From: Micromonospora inyonensis | GTDB lineage: Bacteria; Actinomycetota; Actinomycetes; Mycobacteriales; Micromonosporaceae | Direction: 5' to 3' | Assembly (NCBI RefSeq): GCF_900091415.1 | Contig: NZ_FMHU01000002.1 | Location: forward strand, 2,728,001-2,792,000 | Length of the DNA: 64,000 nucleotides | Program-made: the position numbers and the translations under genes | The notes under the pieces: generated by a model | What the model was told of the DNA's origin: nothing | Databases searched by the model: none | What the model saw: only the letters and a program-made list of their open reading frames with translations | Shown here: piece after piece, positions 9,460 through 16,564 of the stretch | How positions within the stretch are numbered: position 1 is the stretch's first letter | How the letters are laid out: every line of letters begins with the position of its first letter

Positions 9460-10455
9460 GATCCCCCAGACGGAGAGGCCGGTGGTCTCGGGCAGGCCGA
9501 GCATCAGGTTGGCGCACTGCACCGCCTGGCTGGCCGCGCCCTTGCCGAGGTTGTCGATCGCGCTGACCACGATCACCCGACCGCTGTCGGCGTCCCGGGT
9601 GGCCTGGAGGTGACAGGAGTTGGAGCCGAGCGTGGCGGCGGTGTGCGGCCAGCGCCCCTCGGGCAGCAGATGCACGAAGGGCTCGTCCGCGTACGCCTCG
9701 GCGAGCACCGCGCGCGGGTCCACGTCGGCAGTGGCCGGTACGGCGGTGACCGTGGCGAGGATGCCGCGCGGCATCGGCGCGAGGACCGGGGTGAAGCTCA
9801 GCCCGGTCGCGCCGCTGGCCTGCTTGATCTCGGGCACGTGCTGGTGCGCGCCGACCTTGTAGGGCGAGAGGTCGCCCATCACCTCGCTGCCCAGCAGGTG
9901 CGACTTGGCCGTCCGGCCGGCGCCGGAGGTGCCGGAGGCGGCGACCACGACCACGTCGGCGGGCGAGACCGCCCCGGCGGCGACCAGCGGCGCGAGCGCG
10001 AGGGTGGTGGCCACCGCGTAGCAGCCGGTGGCGGCGACCCGGTCGGCGGCGGCGATCGCCGCGCGCTGGCCGGCCAGCTCGGGCAGGCCGTAGGTCCAGG
10101 TCCCGGCGTGCGGGCCCTCGTAGTACCGCTGCCAGGCGGCGGCGTCGGCCAGTCGGTGGTCGGCCCCGAGGTCGACCACCCGCACCGTCGGGGGAAGCGT
10201 GGCGGCGAGCGCCGCCGACTCGCCGTGCGGCAGGGCCAGGAAGACCAGGTCCGCGTCGGCCAGGGCCGCCGGGTCGGTGACGGCGAAGGTCAGGTCCAGC
10301 CCGGCCAACTGCGGATGTACGGCGGCGACCGGCTGGCCCGCCTGGCTGTGCGCGGTGGCGGCGACGAGGTCGAACTCCGGGTGCCCCGCGATCAGGCGCA
10401 GCAGCTCGCCCCCGGCGTAGCCGCTCGCCCCCGCGACCGCGATTCGGATACCCAT
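9451..10455 (-). CDS. argC: N-acetyl-gamma-glutamyl-phosphate reductase
   Basis: NADPH-dependent reduction of acetylglutamyl phosphate to the semialdehyde. 334 residues. The N-terminal GASGYAGGELLRL nucleotide-binding loop and the active-site Cys in ATGCYAVATTL (near residue 143) are present, as are HQHVPEIKQ and the late AIDNLGKGAASQAVQ. The ATG at 10455 has GGAGG 5 bases upstream; a GTG two codons earlier is too close to it. First gene of the arg operon. Its stop codon lies inside an intergenic repeat element. Confidence 0.97.
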   Translation of the reverse strand: MGIRIAVAGASGYAGGELLRLIAGHPEFDLVAATAHSQAGQPVAAVHPQLAGLDLTFAVTDPAALADADLVFLALPHGESAALAATLPPTVRVVDLGADHRLADAAAWQRYYEGPHAGTWTYGLPELAGQRAAIAAADRVAATGCYAVATTLALAPLVAAGAVSPADVVVVAASGTSGAGRTAKSHLLGSEVMGDLSPYKVGAHQHVPEIKQASGATGLSFTPVLAPMPRGILATVTAVPATADVDPRAVLAEAYADEPFVHLLPEGRWPHTAATLGSNSCHLQATRDADSGRVIVVSAIDNLGKGAASQAVQCANLMLGLPETTGLSVWGIAP

Positions 10456-10464
10456 ACCCACCTC

Positions 10465-10539
10465 CGCATGACTATGCAGTCAGGCTAGCAGGAGCGAGAT
10501 CCGAACCGCAAATTCCTACGGAGCACTGCATGACGATGG
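10465..10539 (-). promoter_or_regulatory. arg operon promoter with two ArgR-type boxes
   Basis: On the minus strand TTGCGG (10511-10506) and TAGCCT (10487-10482) are 18 bases apart, a good actinobacterial promoter about 30 bases before argC. The sequence CATAGTCATGC overlaps the expected start of transcription (10467-10477). A near copy, CATCGTCATGC, lies about 62 bases upstream (10529-10539). Their fit to the partly palindromic TGCAT-rich ARG boxes of actinobacteria and the argR gene in the operon suggest ArgR-mediated repression, perhaps by looping (inference). Confidence 0.6.
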
Positions 10540-10607
10540 ATTGGGTGTGCGGTACAGCCGTATCGACTTCGGCGCGGACAGCACCGGCACACCCAACACG
10601 GCAACGG

Positions 10608-11426
10608 TCAGGTCGGCTCCACGGCCAGCCCGTACTGACGCTGGTGGGCGCGGATCGCCGCATCCCATGCCTCGGTGTACTCCGACGGGCCGAGCCCCAG
10701 GTCATGGTGCCCCTTCAGAGCATCCCGAAGCAGATCGGCCAGCTCCATGGGCACCCGTCGGCGCTCTTCGGCGTACTCGCCGAAGACCTGGGCGAACTGC
10801 TTCTCTGTCAGGCGTGCCGCATGTCGGGTGACCGGATCGTCGTGCAGGTTGCAGAGCACTTCGCGCCATCGACTGGTCAGCTCCTCCGCCTGCCGGGTAC
10901 GCAGAGTGGCCAGCTCGTGTGCACACTCAAGACTGATCCGCTCCTCCCAGTACGGCCGCAGGCGCTCGCGGATCCGCTGATCGGGCAGTACGCGTACCTG
11001 GACGGTGAACCGCGGGCCCTCACCCGTGCGGGGCCAGGACTTGCCGGCGAAGTGGGCGTTCAAGTCCTGTTCCAGCTGGTGCGACCGGTGCGGTTCGCGT
11101 CGCCGGGCGAGGTCGGCCGACTGGTCCCGGACGAGGTGGCCGGCCCAGCCGAGGTAACCGTCGATCCGCTCGCGAAACTCACTGAAAGACCCGCCCTTCC
11201 CCGTCCAGGTGTAGGCGGGGTGCACGTGGAAGTCAAAGGCGTCCCCCATGGCCGGCACGCGCAACGGTTCCGGCGCCTCCCGGCGTAGCACCAGGTTTGC
11301 GAGCGGCGGCGGGGCCGGCGCAGTGATGAGCACCTCCGGCGCGGTCGTGTGGGTGGAGTCCCGCCACCAGCGGCTGAACCGCGCACAGAGCGACGTGACG
11401 GATCGATCGGACGAGAAGACGGTCAT
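10608..11426 (-). CDS. Unknown protein, third gene of the cyclase-like/NTPase operon
   Basis: 272 residues. No signal peptide or membrane segment. Residues about 30-150 look like a beta-rich domain (LRVPAMGDAFDFHVHPAYTW, then FTVQVRVLPDQ). Residues 150-225 are a long charged helical stretch (RERLRPYWEERISLECAHEL and onward) likely to form a coiled coil. The layout, a beta domain then a long helix, loosely recalls SPFH-type proteins, but no signature supports that. The ATG overlaps the stop of the large NTPase gene by 4 bases (ATGA), so it is translationally coupled and presumably works with it. Codon use is less extreme in GC than in the neighbouring arg genes. Function unknown. Confidence 0.75.
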   Translation of the reverse strand: MTVFSSDRSVTSLCARFSRWWRDSTHTTAPEVLITAPAPPPLANLVLRREAPEPLRVPAMGDAFDFHVHPAYTWTGKGGSFSEFRERIDGYLGWAGHLVRDQSADLARRREPHRSHQLEQDLNAHFAGKSWPRTGEGPRFTVQVRVLPDQRIRERLRPYWEERISLECAHELATLRTRQAEELTSRWREVLCNLHDDPVTRHAARLTEKQFAQVFGEYAEERRRVPMELADLLRDALKGHHDLGLGPSEYTEAWDAAIRAHQRQYGLAVEPT

Positions 11427-13660
11427 GTCAGGTCCTCGACAGCGAGTTGGGCGACAGCGGGGAGCAGGCGGTTCTGGGGCATGATCGGGCGCCACACATG
11501 ACGTACCTGGTGGCGGAGGCGACGCCGGAGTTGGGGTGTCGTGATGACGGCCCGTAGCAACTCCAGGCATGCGTCCGCGACTCCGAGACGACCGTCGGCT
11601 TGGTTGATCCAGTAGCCGACGATCCGCCAGGACCGGTAGGCCGTCGCAGGCAGGCACAAAGCGGTGCGCAGGAGCACCACCAGGTCGAACAATGGGACGG
11701 CGTTCGCACGCAGCAGGTCGAGCAGTTCGGGCCAGTGGTCGTCGGGAGCCGGCGACCACCGTTCGGCGAGTAGCCGGAACGTCCGCGCCGCGTGCAGACA
11801 CAGTTCCGGCTCGCCGCTGACCGCCCACCGGGCCAGCTCGTGCAACATCAGGGCGCTCTGGCCGCTCTCGTGAATGTCGACGAGGGCCCGACCCACCGAG
11901 TTGTGCCAGCGCTGCGACCGGAACTGCGCGGCCAGCCGGAGCTGGGCCAATGCCACGTCCGGCCACAGTCGGGCGAGTCCCAACGCGTACGCCCGGGCGA
12001 CCGTGTCACGCTGGTAGGCCCTTCCGCTCGCCCAGCGGGACAACTGGGTCCGTACCCGGTGCCGCAAGGGACGCTGCATGGCCATGGCGACGAGGGCGAT
12101 GCCGGCCGCCTGGCGCACCCTGGCCCGCTGGGCCCGGGCGAGATCATCCACCAGTGCCAGCGCCGCGTCGACATCCCGGCCGGCAGCCCAGCCGATCGCC
12201 GCTGCCCCAGCCTGCCGTATCGCCGAGTCGGTGGAGCGGGCGAGGGCGCCGAACCAGCCGAGTAACCGCTCTGGCGCCCACTCGGACCAGGCCACGTCGA
12301 GCAGGTTCCGCCGAAGTTCTTCCTCCGTGGGACGGAAACGCAACCGACGACGGCTCGACGCCACGTCGTCGGGTTCGATCACGACTGCCTGGGACAGCAC
12401 GCCACCCAGCAACGCATCCAGATCCGGTCCCCGGAGTCCGGCGTCGGGGCCGGATACCGGCTCGTCAAGGTACGGGCGGAGCAGCCGGTGCGCCGCGTCG
12501 TGAATCTCCGTCACGGTCTGTCCGGCCAGCACCGCGCACGAGAGCCGGAATGCCCGTAGGTGATCTGCGCCACCGGGATACGTGTCCGCCGACGGGGCCA
12601 GGATTTCCCGGGCCCGTTGGCGCACCTGCTGCGGCAGCAACTGGTCGAGCGCCCGGGCGAGTCGGTTGCCGGACGGGGTACGTTCCGCGATCGCCGCGAC
12701 CACCTGCACCACCTCCCAGGGTCGTGGCGTTCCGGCCAGGTATGCCTTCAGGGCAGGCTGGGAGAGGCACTCGTCGTCCAGGTAGGACTGCACGCAGTCA
12801 CCCTGGCACTCCCCAGCGCAAGCGCCGAGGCAGTCGCCGCGCAGGTGCCGCCACAGCTGTGCCGCGAACACATCCACCGGGGCGGGCGCCCTGTGGACGA
12901 CGGTCGGCACCGACAACCCGTACTCGGTCCCGCCTGCGGTCAGCAGGATGACGGTGCAGCGACGGTTCGCAGCGCGGGTGGCGAGGCCGGCGAGGACCAG
13001 GCCGTCGACACCCGGCGGCCCCGGGTCCGGGACGACGTAACCGACACCGCTCGTGAACAGCCCGTCGACCCCGGCCAGGTCAGCCAGGTCGGCCGCCGTG
13101 AGGACGGCGACGCGGTCCGGGCCGTACCGTCGAGCCAGAGCCAGACACGCGGTGGAGTGGCGCCCGCTTCCGTCCGCTCCGGCCAGCCGCACCAACGGGT
13201 CCCGATTGATCGCCTGGTCGAGCAGTTCGTCGGTGGCCGTCGGCGCGTACCCGTCCCCCATCTGGCGTACCTGCGTGGCGGTCAGTTCCTCACACCACAC
13301 CCGCTCACTGCCATCGGCACCGGTCCGTACAGTGAGGGTGTTGATCGCGACCGCCCTGTGTCCGGTGGCGTTGGCACCCCGGACCCGCACGTTCCCGGTG
13401 CGGACGGCGCCGAGCCGACCGAACAGGTCCTCGATGCCGGAGATGACGACGCGCGGATCGGGTGCCTCGACCTCCTCCTCGATCAGGGCCTCGTCGTCGG
13501 CCGGCGTCTCGGTCGGGTCCGGGGCATGCTCGGCCTCCGGCGCCTGGCCCGCCGCAGCGCCGTCGTCTGACGGCCATGGTCGCCCGGTAGTCGCGTCGAA
13601 GCCGGCCCCCTCAGCGGAGACCCACTCCTCATCCTCGATGGGATACCCGTCCTCACTCAA
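11423..13660 (-). CDS. Large P-loop/helical-repeat protein with shared signalling motif and Cys array
   Basis: 745 residues from the TTG at 13660, chosen because GGGGGGAG lies 7 bases upstream and the start overlaps the previous stop; GTG codons further in are alternatives. Order of parts: acidic disordered N-terminus (1-75); motif AVRTGNVRVRGANATGH at about 85-101, matching the C-terminus of the upstream protein; P-loop-like GADGSGRHST at 161-170, with Arg-His where Lys is usual, followed by an NTPase-like alpha/beta region to about 270; four Cys every fourth residue (277, 281, 285, 289) plus Cys298; then about 440 mostly helical residues, HEAT-like around 480-640 (AIRQAGAAAIGWAAG, ARVRQAAGIALVAMA). 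I know GR-type P-loops in actinobacterial NTPases of possible conflict systems, but no named family fits with certainty. Confidence 0.8.
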   Translation of the reverse strand: MSEDGYPIEDEEWVSAEGAGFDATTGRPWPSDDGAAAGQAPEAEHAPDPTETPADDEALIEEEVEAPDPRVVISGIEDLFGRLGAVRTGNVRVRGANATGHRAVAINTLTVRTGADGSERVWCEELTATQVRQMGDGYAPTATDELLDQAINRDPLVRLAGADGSGRHSTACLALARRYGPDRVAVLTAADLADLAGVDGLFTSGVGYVVPDPGPPGVDGLVLAGLATRAANRRCTVILLTAGGTEYGLSVPTVVHRAPAPVDVFAAQLWRHLRGDCLGACAGECQGDCVQSYLDDECLSQPALKAYLAGTPRPWEVVQVVAAIAERTPSGNRLARALDQLLPQQVRQRAREILAPSADTYPGGADHLRAFRLSCAVLAGQTVTEIHDAAHRLLRPYLDEPVSGPDAGLRGPDLDALLGGVLSQAVVIEPDDVASSRRRLRFRPTEEELRRNLLDVAWSEWAPERLLGWFGALARSTDSAIRQAGAAAIGWAAGRDVDAALALVDDLARAQRARVRQAAGIALVAMAMQRPLRHRVRTQLSRWASGRAYQRDTVARAYALGLARLWPDVALAQLRLAAQFRSQRWHNSVGRALVDIHESGQSALMLHELARWAVSGEPELCLHAARTFRLLAERWSPAPDDHWPELLDLLRANAVPLFDLVVLLRTALCLPATAYRSWRIVGYWINQADGRLGVADACLELLRAVITTPQLRRRLRHQVRHVWRPIMPQNRLLPAVAQLAVEDLT

Positions 13661-14465
13661 GGCCGGCTCCCCCCGAAATGGGCGTCGCCCCGACGGATCC
13701 GATCGCGGTCGTGCCGTGACCGATCGCGTTGGCACCGTCCACTCGCACGTCCCCGGTGTGGATCGCACCATTGCCGGGACCCGACGGGTTACGCGGGTTG
13801 CGTGGCCCACGCCGGCGCGCCGGAGATCCTCCGTCCGGGCGGTCCTCGCCCCCTTCGACGAGTCCGGTACGCGACGGACGCAGGTCCTCGTCCACCACAC
13901 AGATCCACGCCGACTCCCGGAACTCCTTGTCCGGGTGGCGCACCTCGACCCGCCGGAACCGGTCCGGCCGCAGCTCCTCCGGATACTCGGTGACGACATC
14001 CCGGTAGATGTCCGAGGAGACGATCAATCCGACCCCGGCGTTCGGAAACTGCGCAAGCGCCTGCTTCAGCGGCTTCGCCTCACAGAGCCGGCACACCTCG
14101 ATGACCGCGTGGCCGGGAAAGCCGTTCGCCCCGTCGAGGTGCACCAGCCCCTGGTGGATGGAGACGCGCAGCCGGATCCGCGCCTCTGGGATCCGGCTGC
14201 TGTTGTAGGCCCGCAGTATCCGGTTCAGCTCCGGCACGAAACGTCCGAGCAGCAACGGCTCACGGACGTCCGGAGGCAGGATCGCCAGTTCCCCGTCACC
14301 GGCCTGCTGGGTCTTCCACTGGACCCGGTCCAGTCCGACGGCGTTGGCCGCCTCGTGCAGCACCTGCTGGAACGCTTGCTGCGCCTCGTACTGGTGCCGG
14401 TTTCCCCGACGGCTGTAACGCTCCATGTCGACGGCGATCAGCAGCCGTCGTTCGGGATGGTTCAT
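13653..14465 (-). CDS. Class III cyclase-homology protein with C-terminal signalling motif
   Basis: 270 residues from the ATG at 14465. Residues 7-165 fit the class III nucleotidyl cyclase fold: metal-site Asp in LLIAVDMERYS (D13), AGDGELAILP (D57), RIRLRVSIHQGLVHLDG, and the GHAVIEVCRLCEA helix. The transition-state Asn of true cyclases is replaced (VIEVCR), though Arg126 remains, so it may bind rather than cyclise nucleotides. Residues 195-232 are a flexible linker. Residues 234-258 hold AIHTGDVRVDGANAIGHG, repeated in the next protein. The stop lies 8 bases inside the next gene (TTGAGTGA). Such domains are common in actinobacteria next to NTPases; the exact role is unknown. Confidence 0.78.
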   Translation of the reverse strand: MNHPERRLLIAVDMERYSRRGNRHQYEAQQAFQQVLHEAANAVGLDRVQWKTQQAGDGELAILPPDVREPLLLGRFVPELNRILRAYNSSRIPEARIRLRVSIHQGLVHLDGANGFPGHAVIEVCRLCEAKPLKQALAQFPNAGVGLIVSSDIYRDVVTEYPEELRPDRFRRVEVRHPDKEFRESAWICVVDEDLRPSRTGLVEGGEDRPDGGSPARRRGPRNPRNPSGPGNGAIHTGDVRVDGANAIGHGTTAIGSVGATPISGGAGLE

Positions 14466-14794
14466 CTCCCATGTCCTCCATCGCTGACGCACCGGGTGGC
14501 GCGTCACCCGGACATGAGATCGCCAGCACAGCGGCGAGACCCCGTACTAGTACGGTTTGTCGCCCCGCCGTCAACCCGTTCCATGAGGGGGTTTTCCGCA
14601 GCGGTCCGGGGTCTGCTCGACTCATGACCGCACACCTCGTCGAGGCACTGCTCGATGCCGGGATCTCCCCGGCGGCCCTGATCCTCCTGGTGGCCCTGGC
14701 GGCACTCACGGAGTCACTCCACCTTGTACGTTCATCACGAGGCGCACCAGCGTGGTTACGCTTGGTCACGACCAGATTTGGGAGGAGAGCGCAC
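14466..14794. other. Divergent intergenic region of the accessory island
   Basis: 329 bases between the cyclase-like gene and the original Crp/Fnr start. It holds the palindromic promoter listed separately and a GGAGGAG ribosome site at 14781-14787 for the Crp gene. A plus-strand reading frame from 14624 is open and would encode a hydrophobic stretch, but it has no good ribosome site and simply runs in frame into the Crp gene, so no extra gene is called. Confidence 0.6.
14542..14574 (-). promoter_or_regulatory. Promoter of the cyclase-like/NTPase operon with palindromic operator
   Basis: Minus-strand TTGACG (14574-14569) is followed after 16 bases by TACTAG (14552-14547). The -10 lies inside a perfect 14-base palindrome, CCGTACTAGTACGG (14542-14555). 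A regulator bound there would block RNA polymerase. The start codon is about 75 bases downstream. The nearby, now broken, Crp/Fnr protein is one possible ligand, but its half-site (usually TGTGA-like) is not seen. Confidence 0.5.
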
Positions 14795-14858
14795 GTGCCG
14801 ATGCCGCGACATGGGGACAAGGGCGACTGGCCGTACGGCACATTCCTGCAACGCCTTA

Positions 14859-15827
14859 GAGGTCGCGCGGAATGGTTGTTGATCATCGGCGGCGGGCGGG
14901 TCGGTTGTTCCACCGGTAGAGGGTCCATGCACGCCGGATGAGGCTGCGGACGGTGATGATCGCGTCGGCGAGGTCGAAGAAGGCGTCGATGACCTTCTCT
15001 GTTCGTTCGTAGCAGCGTTGCAGCCGGTTGAACGCGTTGTGCCAGCTGTTCGTCCGTTCGACGTGCCACCGTTGGCTCGCCTGGATGGGCGCCTTGTCGC
15101 CCTTGTGGGCGATCTCACCGGTCAGGCCGCGCTCGGCCAGCAGGGCGCGGGTGACCTGGGAGTCGTATCCGGCGTCGAGGTGCACCGTGATGGCCTGGGG
15201 TAGTGGGCCGAGGTCGTCGAGGTGGTCGAGGGTGGGGCCGAGCAGGGGTGAGTCGTGTCGGTTCGCGCCGGCCAGGACCCGGCCGAGGGGGATGCCGTAG
15301 CCGTCGACCATCAACGAGCGTTTCATGCCCTGCTTGCCCCGGTCGACCGGTGAGCGTCCGGCGGCCTCGCCGCCGCCGGGAGCCTTGGTGATGCAGCCGT
15401 CCACGGCGATGTCGTCGAGGACCAGGCCGACGAGCCGGTCGTAGGCGTCCAGGGCGATCTGTTTGAGCTGGGCGAACACCCCAAGCTCTATCCACTCGTC
15501 ACGGCGGCCGCGGATCGTGGTGGCCGAACAGGTGGCATCGGCGATCGCCTCGTAGGCGCAGCCGAACCGCAACACCTGGACCAGCTTGTCGAACACGATG
15601 CGGTCATCGATCCGCTTGCGGTGACAGCCCAGCGGATGTGTCGGTTGGTAGGTCGGCCGATCGGGGAGCAGCGCGGCGAACTGGACCCACAACGGCTCGA
15701 TCAGCCATGCTGGGATGGCAGGCACAGAACCTCCCGTGATCACGGAGCGTCAGCAACTTCATGATCACCAGTTCTGTGTCTGCATCCGTTCAGGCGCGCC
15801 GATCAACCCACCATTCCGCGCGACCTC
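14859..15827 (-). mobile_element. IS5-family insertion sequence, 969 bp
   Basis: Ends are inverted repeats: 14859 onward GAGGTCGCGCGGAATGGT, and the same 18 bases inward from 15827 on the other strand, with weaker similarity to TTGATC. A TTA triplet flanks both sides (14856-14858 and 15828-15830), fitting the TNA target duplication of IS5-type elements. It carries one transposase gene on the minus strand. Both ends and the open reading frame are intact, suggesting a recent insertion. Confidence 0.9.
14883..15743 (-). CDS. IS5-family transposase (DDE)
   Basis: 286 residues. The N-terminal part (PAWLIEPLWVQFAALLPDRP, then CHRKRIDDRIVFDKLVQVL) matches the IS5 N-terminal helix-turn-helix region. 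The DDE core shows Asp115 in LDDIAVDGCITKAP, Asp190/194 in ITVHLDAGYDSQ, and Glu229 in WHVERTNSWHNAFNRL. Full length, no frameshift. It is the only gene in the element, reading towards the left end. The insertion split a Crp/Fnr gene. Confidence 0.95.
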   Translation of the reverse strand: MITGGSVPAIPAWLIEPLWVQFAALLPDRPTYQPTHPLGCHRKRIDDRIVFDKLVQVLRFGCAYEAIADATCSATTIRGRRDEWIELGVFAQLKQIALDAYDRLVGLVLDDIAVDGCITKAPGGGEAAGRSPVDRGKQGMKRSLMVDGYGIPLGRVLAGANRHDSPLLGPTLDHLDDLGPLPQAITVHLDAGYDSQVTRALLAERGLTGEIAHKGDKAPIQASQRWHVERTNSWHNAFNRLQRCYERTEKVIDAFFDLADAIITVRSLIRRAWTLYRWNNRPARRR

Positions 15828-16511
15828 TTACTCCATCGGCCCGGACCGCGCTGTTCGATCTCGGCGTACGCCGACAGGTCGACGCCGGGCAGATCGTCAT
15901 CCACGAGGGGTTCCGGGAGTCACACCTGGTCCTGCTGGAGGAGGGGCTCACCAAGGTGACCGCGAACCTGCCCGACGGGCGTACCGCGCTCCTCGCCCTA
16001 CGGATTGGCGGAGACCTGGTTGGCGAGATGTCCGCGCTGAACGGCGAGCCCCGCTCGGCGACCATCACCACCTGCCGACCGACCCGTTACAGCGTCATCC
16101 GGCCCGACCGCTTCAAACTGTTCCTGCGGAACCATCCCGACGCCGCATTGGAACTGGCGGCGATGGTCTCGGACCGCCTTCGCTGGTCAAACCGCCGCCG
16201 GATCGACTTCACGGGCTACGGGGTCAAGGAGCGGGTGGCCCGAGTCATCGCGGAGATGTGCCGCACTCACGGTCGGCAGCAACGGGACGGCGTGGTGATC
16301 GACGTCCGGCTCACCCAGCCGGAACTGGCCACCATCTGCGGTGCCGCCGAGACATCGGTCCACAAGGCGCTCCGCGAGCTCCGTGGTGACGGCCTTGTAG
16401 AGACGGACTACCGACGGATCACCGTCCGGGATCTGCCAGGCCTGCAGAAGGCGGGGAAGCTCGACCCCGCCGCCGGATGAGCACCGCAGCAACGGGCCGG
16501 CTCGGGTGTCT

Positions 16512-16557
16512 GCAGGGGCCCCCTGCTCCACAGAAAGCGGTAACAAGGGACCCCTGC
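16512..16557. terminator. Inverted repeat between convergent Crp and pheT genes
   Basis: Arms GCAGGGGCCCC (16512-16522) and GGGACCCCTGC (16547-16557) pair with one mismatch around 24 bases. It lies between two convergent genes and is suited to end transcription from both sides. I recall similar GGGGCCCC-type palindromes scattered in Micromonospora genomes; this is memory, not demonstrated here. Confidence 0.55.
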
Positions 16558-16564
16558 TACCACC

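Follow-up and report, generated by a model that had tools for sequence, protein, structure and literature searches.

The closest described relatives of the locus reported here are the BASS Bell/NLR pairs of filamentous actinobacteria, in which adjacent genes encode an output protein and an NTPase carrying a matched motif, of one of many types, at the C-terminus of the former and the N-terminus of the latter; CHAT and TIR also occur as BASS-type outputs besides Bell (PMC7889193, PMC9815663 and PMC8086366; these and the papers below are cited in part). The NTP-dependent conflict systems of multicellular bacteria use cNMP cyclases, Band-7 proteins, STAND NTPases and CRP-like regulators as parts (PMC7159879, PMC8195603), and Pycsar joins a class III cyclase homolog with altered base-recognition positions to a cyclic-nucleotide-binding receptor (PMC11224242).

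The locus lies in a window of 64,000 nucleotides from the soil bacterium Micromonospora inyonensis (contig NZ_FMHU01000002.1, positions 2,728,001 to 2,792,000). Measured against the cited parts of those accounts, it differs from BASS in that the output protein is a cyclase homolog rather than Bell, and in having two further genes, one for a CRP-type regulator and one that is SPFH-like; an amyloid state is putative here. Its parts recall the NTP-dependent conflict systems, but here each part has a gene of its own and a short motif does the wiring, and, unlike the MoxR-vWA ternary system, it has no MoxR or vWA recognized among the profiled neighbor genes. Compared with Pycsar, the receptor is a CRP-type regulator instead of a TIR or membrane effector, an NLR-like sensor is present, and there is no PADLOC match. 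The likeness to NTP-dependent conflict systems that the first-pass annotation proposed is real, while membership in any published system is not.

Three open reading frames on the minus strand form the core of the locus. The first, g1 (13653-14465; 270 aa, ATG start), encodes a cyclase-homology domain, a disordered linker and a C-terminal motif; g2 (11423-13660; 745 aa, TTG start) encodes an N-terminal motif, an Arg-type P-loop NTPase and a HEAT-like helical tail; and g3 (10608-11426; 272 aa) encodes a distantly SPFH/Band-7-like protein. An 8-base overlap joins g1 to g2 and an ATGA joins g2 to g3, as expected of the tightly coupled genes first described. A sigma-70 scan at the locus returned 0 sites, and the single promoter of the first-pass annotation is putative. 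The first-pass annotation had called for a neighborhood survey, and would have counted it against its reading if the genes were never together elsewhere; we found all three, in the same order, in 12 of 12 fetched homologous loci. The proposed signaling unit stands, as a conserved but patchy one: of the 41 genomes that we searched, 7 have g2, all of them among the 25 of Micromonospora and none among the 16 others. A more distant survey gave 65 match rows, including our own, from which 40 neighborhoods were fetched; a g2-type partner was present in 17 and absent from 23. The third gene was detected in 14 of the 17 loci with g2, and a CRP-type gene lay upstream in 14 of those 17 versus 4 of the 23 without g2, the regulator, g2 and third-gene profiles having been built partly from the loci on which they were scanned. 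The motif shared by g1 and g2, the CRP-type fourth gene, its interruption by an insertion sequence and the SPFH-like kinship of g3 all lie beyond the first reading.

All 12 of the homologous loci have a gene for a CRP-type cyclic-nucleotide-binding regulator on the upstream side of g1. Among ten distant regulator genes tested with Pfam, the cyclic-nucleotide-binding domain and Crp HTH were confirmed in nine; the tenth, at L054, was the wrong neighbor, and a profile scan finds the regulator at that locus. In our window the gene is divergent from g1 and lies on the plus strand in two pieces, a 5' piece (14624..14857; tblastn matches to 8 of 12 homologous loci) and a 3' piece (15830..16480; 12 of 12) that contains the cyclic-nucleotide cassette GEMSALNGEPRSAT and matches solved CRP structures (E 1e-19). 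Between them sits an IS5-family element (14859..15827) with inverted ends and TTA on both flanks, whose transposase is encoded at 14883-15743 on the minus strand (NF033580, E 7e-48). Because the regulator gene is broken, regulation is probably altered in this strain; and because this element and the broken gene are immediately upstream of the trio, the earlier statement that the trio is the only clearly accessory cluster needs correction. A perfect palindrome, CCGTACTAGTACGG (14542..14555), between g1 and the regulator gene has a counterpart in most homologous loci and is a candidate operator. The regulator has Ser-Asn, and solved actinobacterial CRP proteins have Thr-Asn, at what we take to be the base-contact position in question. 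Because of those structures we dropped the idea, suggested by part of PMC11224242, that an Asn in the base-contact helix indicates cUMP specificity.

The cyclase homology of g1 is remote. No Pfam, NCBIfam or PADLOC model reached it, with Pfam run on all 38 rows of our alignment, and the profile from those 38 rows alone gave a probability of only 18.5 against PF00211 domains. A broader g1 profile, of 62 rows including repeats and of 47 once filtered, matched 28 PF00211 domains with a probability of 94.7 (E 6.3e-8). By this comparison g1 has the PF00211 homology and metal-binding aspartates of a class III nucleotide cyclase, and lacks the canonical residues at the Lys and Asn positions. Both metal Asp and the Arg position are retained in 38 of 38 rows; Gln stands in place of the base-recognition Lys in every row, and only 6 of the 38 have Asn at the Asn position. 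The first-pass description of a cyclase-fold protein with one catalytic residue replaced was accurate, and the Asn position can be added as mostly changed. Since both positions are altered, g1 may not be an active cyclase. It could be a pseudo-cyclase that binds nucleotide or nothing and, when clustered, has a switching or regulatory role instead of a catalytic one, a reading that several inactive cyclase domains reported in conflict systems would favor (PMC7159879). Yet the metal and Arg residues are kept without exception, a cyclic-nucleotide-binding regulator is the constant neighbor, and the pyrimidine cyclases of Pycsar likewise differ at base-recognition positions (PMC11224242). We regard a pseudo-cyclase as plausible, if somewhat short of probable.

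What the module is for is a separate question. In 14 Micromonospora genomes a pheT-like and an argC-like gene share a contig, and the interval between them holds the trio in 5, is empty in 3 (a gap of approximately 190 bp) and holds other cargo in 6. By eye, this cargo comprises nucleotide-sugar enzymes, transport and peptidase-like genes, a secreted enzyme-like protein and regulators; it does not look like defense, and a defense hotspot is unsupported. A housekeeping role was rejected because g2 is patchy and occupancy of the site varies. PADLOC-DB 2.0 returned 0 families for all three trio proteins at E values up to 1. Of the candidate undescribed defense or signaling system first proposed, signaling is supported and defense is so far unsupported. 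The lack of PADLOC matches and the nature of the other cargo would suit a module for development or stress signaling rather than immunity, but its patchy presence, the strains in which the site is empty and the strong divergence of motif types among operons all argue the other way, and we put this alternative, like the pseudo-cyclase, slightly below an even call.

The second protein has the STAND/NLR layout of a P-loop NTPase followed by helical repeats. Alignments place its Walker A (GADGSGRH) at 13157..13180 on the minus strand, with Arg at the Lys position; among 21 diverse relatives of g2, 15 have this replacement and all 21 keep the P-loop Gly166. The tail has a sub-threshold HEAT_2 match. 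These results agree with the 745-residue GR-type P-loop protein with a helical-repeat tail of the first-pass annotation. Of 10 g2 relatives, 6 match nSTAND3 or NACHT below threshold, the best at E 4.5e-5, which suggests kinship with nSTAND3-type STAND NTPases (PF20720). The cut-off of the curated STAND model was not passed (best nSTAND3 match 23.6 bits versus 27.2, in a distant relative), and, in contrast to that family, g2 of this window has no NTPase domain match and Arg commonly stands for the Walker A Lys. For g3, a direct comparison of its profile with Band_7 was negative (0.1). A chain of profiles leads from g3 to the distant third genes (96.2) and from these to Band_7 (88.8), indirectly suggesting an SPFH/Band-7-like protein. 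Resemblances to MukF, a virulence factor and DUF3243 were rejected as sub-threshold helix matches.

What pairs g1 with g2 is a motif of approximately 25 residues common to the g1 tail (13701..13769, minus strand) and the N-terminal region of g2 (13343..13411, minus strand). The two copies are marked by a 69-nt direct repeat (74%), the longest within 10400-16500. The g1 copy is kept in g1 relatives, and the g2 copy has residues invariant in 25 of 25 close homologs. A search of the genome with the motif part of g1 found g2 as the sole other credible match (E 0.05); the next (E 0.6) has a broken frame. Within Micromonospora, the residue before NA is Q in both copies in 15 operons and A in both in 3, a paired change among 18 operons. 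At the level of sequence, the motif architecture is that of the BASS pairs, a kind of wiring described for prion-like routes to cell death, with the cyclase-homology protein in the output slot.

Motifs differ widely from one operon to the next, and most g1 tails match best with the g2 of their own operon. In a set of 18 pairs chosen by eye, 16 tails place their own partner first. For the re-pairing test we used the 16 partners known at that point and five Micromonospora operons; 18 of 21 rank first, or 17 of 19 when one main-type operon is kept. With these 19 operons, none of 100,000 re-pairings reached the observed sum of motif match, and three control region pairs gave a null result in the same test. 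A second anchoring, with L083 added, repeated the outcome: 17 of 20 tails matched their own g2 best, and 0 of 100,000 re-pairings reached the observed value. In this run L010 and L056 could not be anchored. L051 has no g1-g2 match and is a genuine miss, and L053 has a weak one; L056 does match in the by-eye set and the re-pairing test, and the pair P0010/P0070, put together because their contigs are equally long and as long as that of L010, also shows a shared motif. In the survey of neighborhoods, L009, L010, L012, L014 and L092 were false misses: their stop-to-stop frames begin upstream of the gene, leaving the motif outside the compared stretch.

These data establish matching, not physical state, which leaves room for a short homotypic docking tag that keeps g1 bound to g2 in soluble form, with no amyloid. 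In the account of Kaur et al., conflict-system components carry adaptor domains (EADs) that match one another (PMC7159879, PMC8195603, in the parts cited). Against such a tag, a motif of this length in a Gly/Pro-rich linker fits the size and placement of amyloid signaling motifs, which span 20-40 residues (PMC8086366), and not a globular adaptor; in addition, the L083, L086 and L093 pairs are RHIM-like by eye. We consider the docking tag rather unlikely. That the likeness is mere low-complexity composition, or recent gene conversion of neighboring genes, is highly improbable: the tails and linkers are Gly/Pro-rich and 7 of 29 pairs fail to beat all 500 shuffles, but 22 of 29 do, non-cognate tails of like composition match worse in the re-pairings, and the g1 and g2 copies keep side-specific residues in Micromonospora, unlike a fresh conversion.

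We propose that the helical repeats of g2 would sense a trigger and g2 would oligomerize, its N-terminal motif then templating the matching motif on the g1 tail, very likely as a cross-beta amyloid. Class III cyclases function as dimers. Templating would cluster the cyclase domains of g1 and turn on the synthesis or binding of a nucleotide; the CRP-type regulator would read the cyclic nucleotide and change transcription, with g3 as a putative scaffold. The sequence itself shows the make-up and gene order of the module, the matching of the motifs, and the kept metal site of g1 and cyclic-nucleotide cassette of the regulator. We infer the oligomerization, amyloid state, cyclase activity, cyclic-nucleotide readout and any immune or stress role of the module. 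That the CRP-type regulator, cyclase-homology g1, STAND/NLR-like g2 and SPFH-like g3 form a four-gene signaling module acting as such a relay seems to us evenly balanced. Its most specific form is a prion-like receptor-to-enzyme relay: amyloid templated by an NLR-like sensor would cluster and so activate a non-canonical class III cyclase, whose product, a cyclic nucleotide with an unusual base, would be read by a dedicated CRP-type regulator. This form is a tentative and doubtful proposal. A literature search did not find the combination of a motif-paired sensor and cyclase-like protein with a CRP-type regulator.

If true, the relay would bring amyloid signalosomes and cyclic-nucleotide signaling together in a single pathway, for which actinomycetes would have many orthogonal motif specificities. 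The natural matched pairs are a ready specificity panel, making testable both the insulation among NLR-like sensors and the products of cyclase homologs with altered base-recognition residues. Bacterial amyloid-type signaling would then not only trigger killing proteins, but could also drive a nucleotide-signaling output with a built-in transcriptional reader.

The first-pass annotation had described three coupled genes, and all three are present as claimed, on the minus strand: g1 (13653-14465), a cyclase-homology protein with a motif tail; g2 (11423-13660), a P-loop NTPase; and g3 (10608-11426), joined by an 8-base overlap and an ATGA. The genome that contains them spans 6.9 Mb in 4 contigs, and the nearest named protein relatives belong to Micromonospora and, in some cases, to Plantactinospora. 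Scanned singly against Pfam, PADLOC and NCBIfam, none of the three proteins scored above cut-off.

The longest direct repeat between 10400 and 16500 (69 nt, 74%) encodes HTGDVRVDGANAIGHGTTAIG in the g1 tail and RTGNVRVRGANATGHRAVAIN ahead of the g2 P-loop. When the motif part of g1 is searched against the genome it comes from, g2 is the one further credible match (E 0.05); the next has an E of 0.6 and a broken frame. Of 197 genomes of the class, 33 contain relatives detected by a profile of 38 g1 proteins, and in 17 of the 40 neighbourhoods fetched from its 65 hit rows a g2-type gene directly follows the g1-type gene. The type of motif varies strongly between these operons, yet the g1 and g2 partners agree. 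For example, the pairs (g1/g2) read KVVGGDEINY/KVVGGDEITY in locus L052, SGAVDARGAVFGI/AGVQAQGAVFGM in L055, GGTVHGTQNNISGNRISGGFHLGG/GGTVRGDQNNIAGNQISGDVFLGG in L077 and GPTQFGNHNTM/GPTQFGTHNTM in L093.

We measured this agreement by scoring each g1 tail against every g2. For 17 of 19 tails, a set with a single main-type Micromonospora operon, the best match was the g2 of the same operon (the cognate), with a mean score of 64.6 for cognate and 31.8 for non-cognate pairs, and none of 100,000 random re-pairings reached the observed cognate sum. Three control region pairs were null, the observed value being reached in 19281, 3983 and 9014 of 20,000 permutations. Over all 21 pairs, 18 ranked first; a run that was anchored differently and included L083 placed 17 of 20 first, again with 0 of 100,000 re-pairings reaching the sum. 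Under the first anchoring the misses were L051, fifteenth of 19, and L053, third; under the second they were L051, L053 and L056. Under the latter, 22 of 29 pairs exceeded all 500 shuffles and seven (L010, L051, L056, L072, L083, L085 and L094) did not, L010 and L056 because the anchor was misplaced. Among 18 operons of the genus (two of 20 were dropped because the g2 pattern was unmatched), both partners carry the same residue before NA, Q/Q in 15 and A/A in 3, and they agree at a second variable site in 13; the three A/A operons are closely related, so the paired change may represent one event.

A fourth gene accompanies the trio. In distant loci a CRP/FNR-type gene lies upstream of g1, with cNMP_binding and HTH_Crp domains in 9 of 10 tested, and a profile scan placed it there in 14 of the 17 loci that have a g2 partner and in 4 of the 23 that lack one. 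The three exceptions among the 17 are L052 and L083, at contig ends, and L072, which has no regulator; L093 and L094 have a small gene between regulator and g1. In all 12 homologous loci of the genus the regulator is upstream and divergent, and its phosphate-binding cassette is kept in most loci. In the window, homologous genes show the regulator starting at 14624 on the plus strand and resuming at 15830 to 16480, interrupted by an IS5-family element (transposase at 14883-15743; NF033580, E 7e-48) with inverted ends and TTA on both flanks. The 3' piece shares 64-81% identity with ten homologous genes and about 53% with two others; solved CRP proteins match it at E 1e-19. The likely regulator of the module is therefore broken in this strain, unlike the intact gene of the homologous loci. 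A perfect palindrome, CCGTACTAGTACGG (14542-14555), between g1 and the regulator gene is a candidate operator; counterparts were recognisable, without a significance test, in most homologous loci. Four loci (L049, L050, L073 and L088, of which L073 runs to a contig end) have CRP-type and g1-type genes with no g2 partner detected, and are possibly orphan forms.

A diverse g1 profile (62 rows with repeats counted, of which filtering left 47) matched 28 PF00211 domains with probability 94.7 and E 6.3e-8; the narrower 38-row profile alone gave 18.5. Controls with g2 and g3 against a cyclase template containing one bad row gave 0.5 and 0.1, and g3 against the corrected template gave 0.2. D13, D57 and R126 are kept in all 38 rows; every row also has Gln at position 53, where the cyclase template has Lys, and Gly at position 115, and 6 of the 38 have Asn at position 122. 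Longer cyclase-homology proteins lacking a g2 partner or adjoining CRP-type gene (L060-L071, L074, L076 and L078) form a separate branch.

In g2, Gly166 of the Walker A motif is present in 21 of 21 diverse relatives and is followed by Arg in 15; six of 10 relatives matched nSTAND3 or NACHT below threshold, at best with E 4.5e-5, and the tail is HEAT-repeat-like. Two homologues, P0021 and P0022, have Leu at the Walker A Lys position (GSGL), which suggests that nucleotide hydrolysis is dispensable. A C-x3-C-x3-C-x3-C cluster (12794-12832), possibly a metal or Fe-S site, keeps all four Cys in each of 25 close homologues; the pattern occurs in only 4 of the 21 diverse relatives. Nine distant operons have third genes that the g3 family matches (probability 96.2, E 2.8e-9), and those third genes in turn match Band_7 (88.8, E 2.5e-6); five controls were all ≤1.3. 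Direct comparison of g3 with Band_7 was negative (0.1), so the SPFH link of g3 is transitive. Two distant operons are followed by a PP2C phosphatase and a DUF4407 protein (L052:4208-5410; L055:10830-12215), and those of L077, L080 and L082 lie near a gene that reads by eye as ribosomal protein S12 (rpsL), a conserved chromosomal context unlike that of the window.

A neighbourhood survey, which the first-pass annotation had named as a check, found the trio conserved together: g1, g2 and g3 occur in order in all 12 genomes searched by tblastn (13 homologous loci, L005 and L008 being from one genome), and each of the 12 homologous loci in a second table has g1 and g2 together with the third gene. 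Across 41 searched genomes g2 is present in 7, comprising 7 of 25 from Micromonospora and 0 of 16 others. The genes flanking the trio read as pheT and argC. Fourteen genomes of the genus have both such genes on one contig (G009 and G014 were unscored): the trio lies between them in five (G000, G001, G003, G006, G007), a gap of about 190 bp in three (G010, G013, G015) and other cargo in six (G002, G004, G005, G008, G011, G012). This interval (10462-16564; also L123-L131) is variable across the genus. Divergent versions of the trio occur in G015, at another site, and in G024.

The composition and gene order of the module, its matched motifs and its retained metal site and cyclic-nucleotide cassette are seen in the sequences. 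On sensing, g2 would oligomerise and its motif would template that of g1; the clustered cyclase domains would then bind or convert nucleotide, the CRP-type regulator would respond, and g3 may serve as a scaffold. Bell/NLR pairs with bacterial amyloid signalling sequences (BASS) are motif-wired in the same way according to the reviews PMC7889193 and PMC9815663, the former naming CHAT and TIR as further outputs. The word "cyclase" is absent from the main text of PMC9815663 and PMC8086366. New motif pairs have been accepted on comparable evidence (PMC12261475), the components of other conflict systems include cyclases, Band-7 domains, STAND NTPases and CRP-like regulators (PMC7159879, PMC8195603), and pyrimidine cyclases have different base-recognition residues (PMC11224242). 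A combination of amyloid/NLR, cyclase, CRP and Band 7 was not found in the literature covered, mostly listings and the openings of abstracts, with few subscription papers. Because its output protein differs from that of a Bell/NLR BASS pair and its amyloid state is putative, we class the module not with Bell/NLR BASS but as a new form of motif-wired NLR-type signalling.
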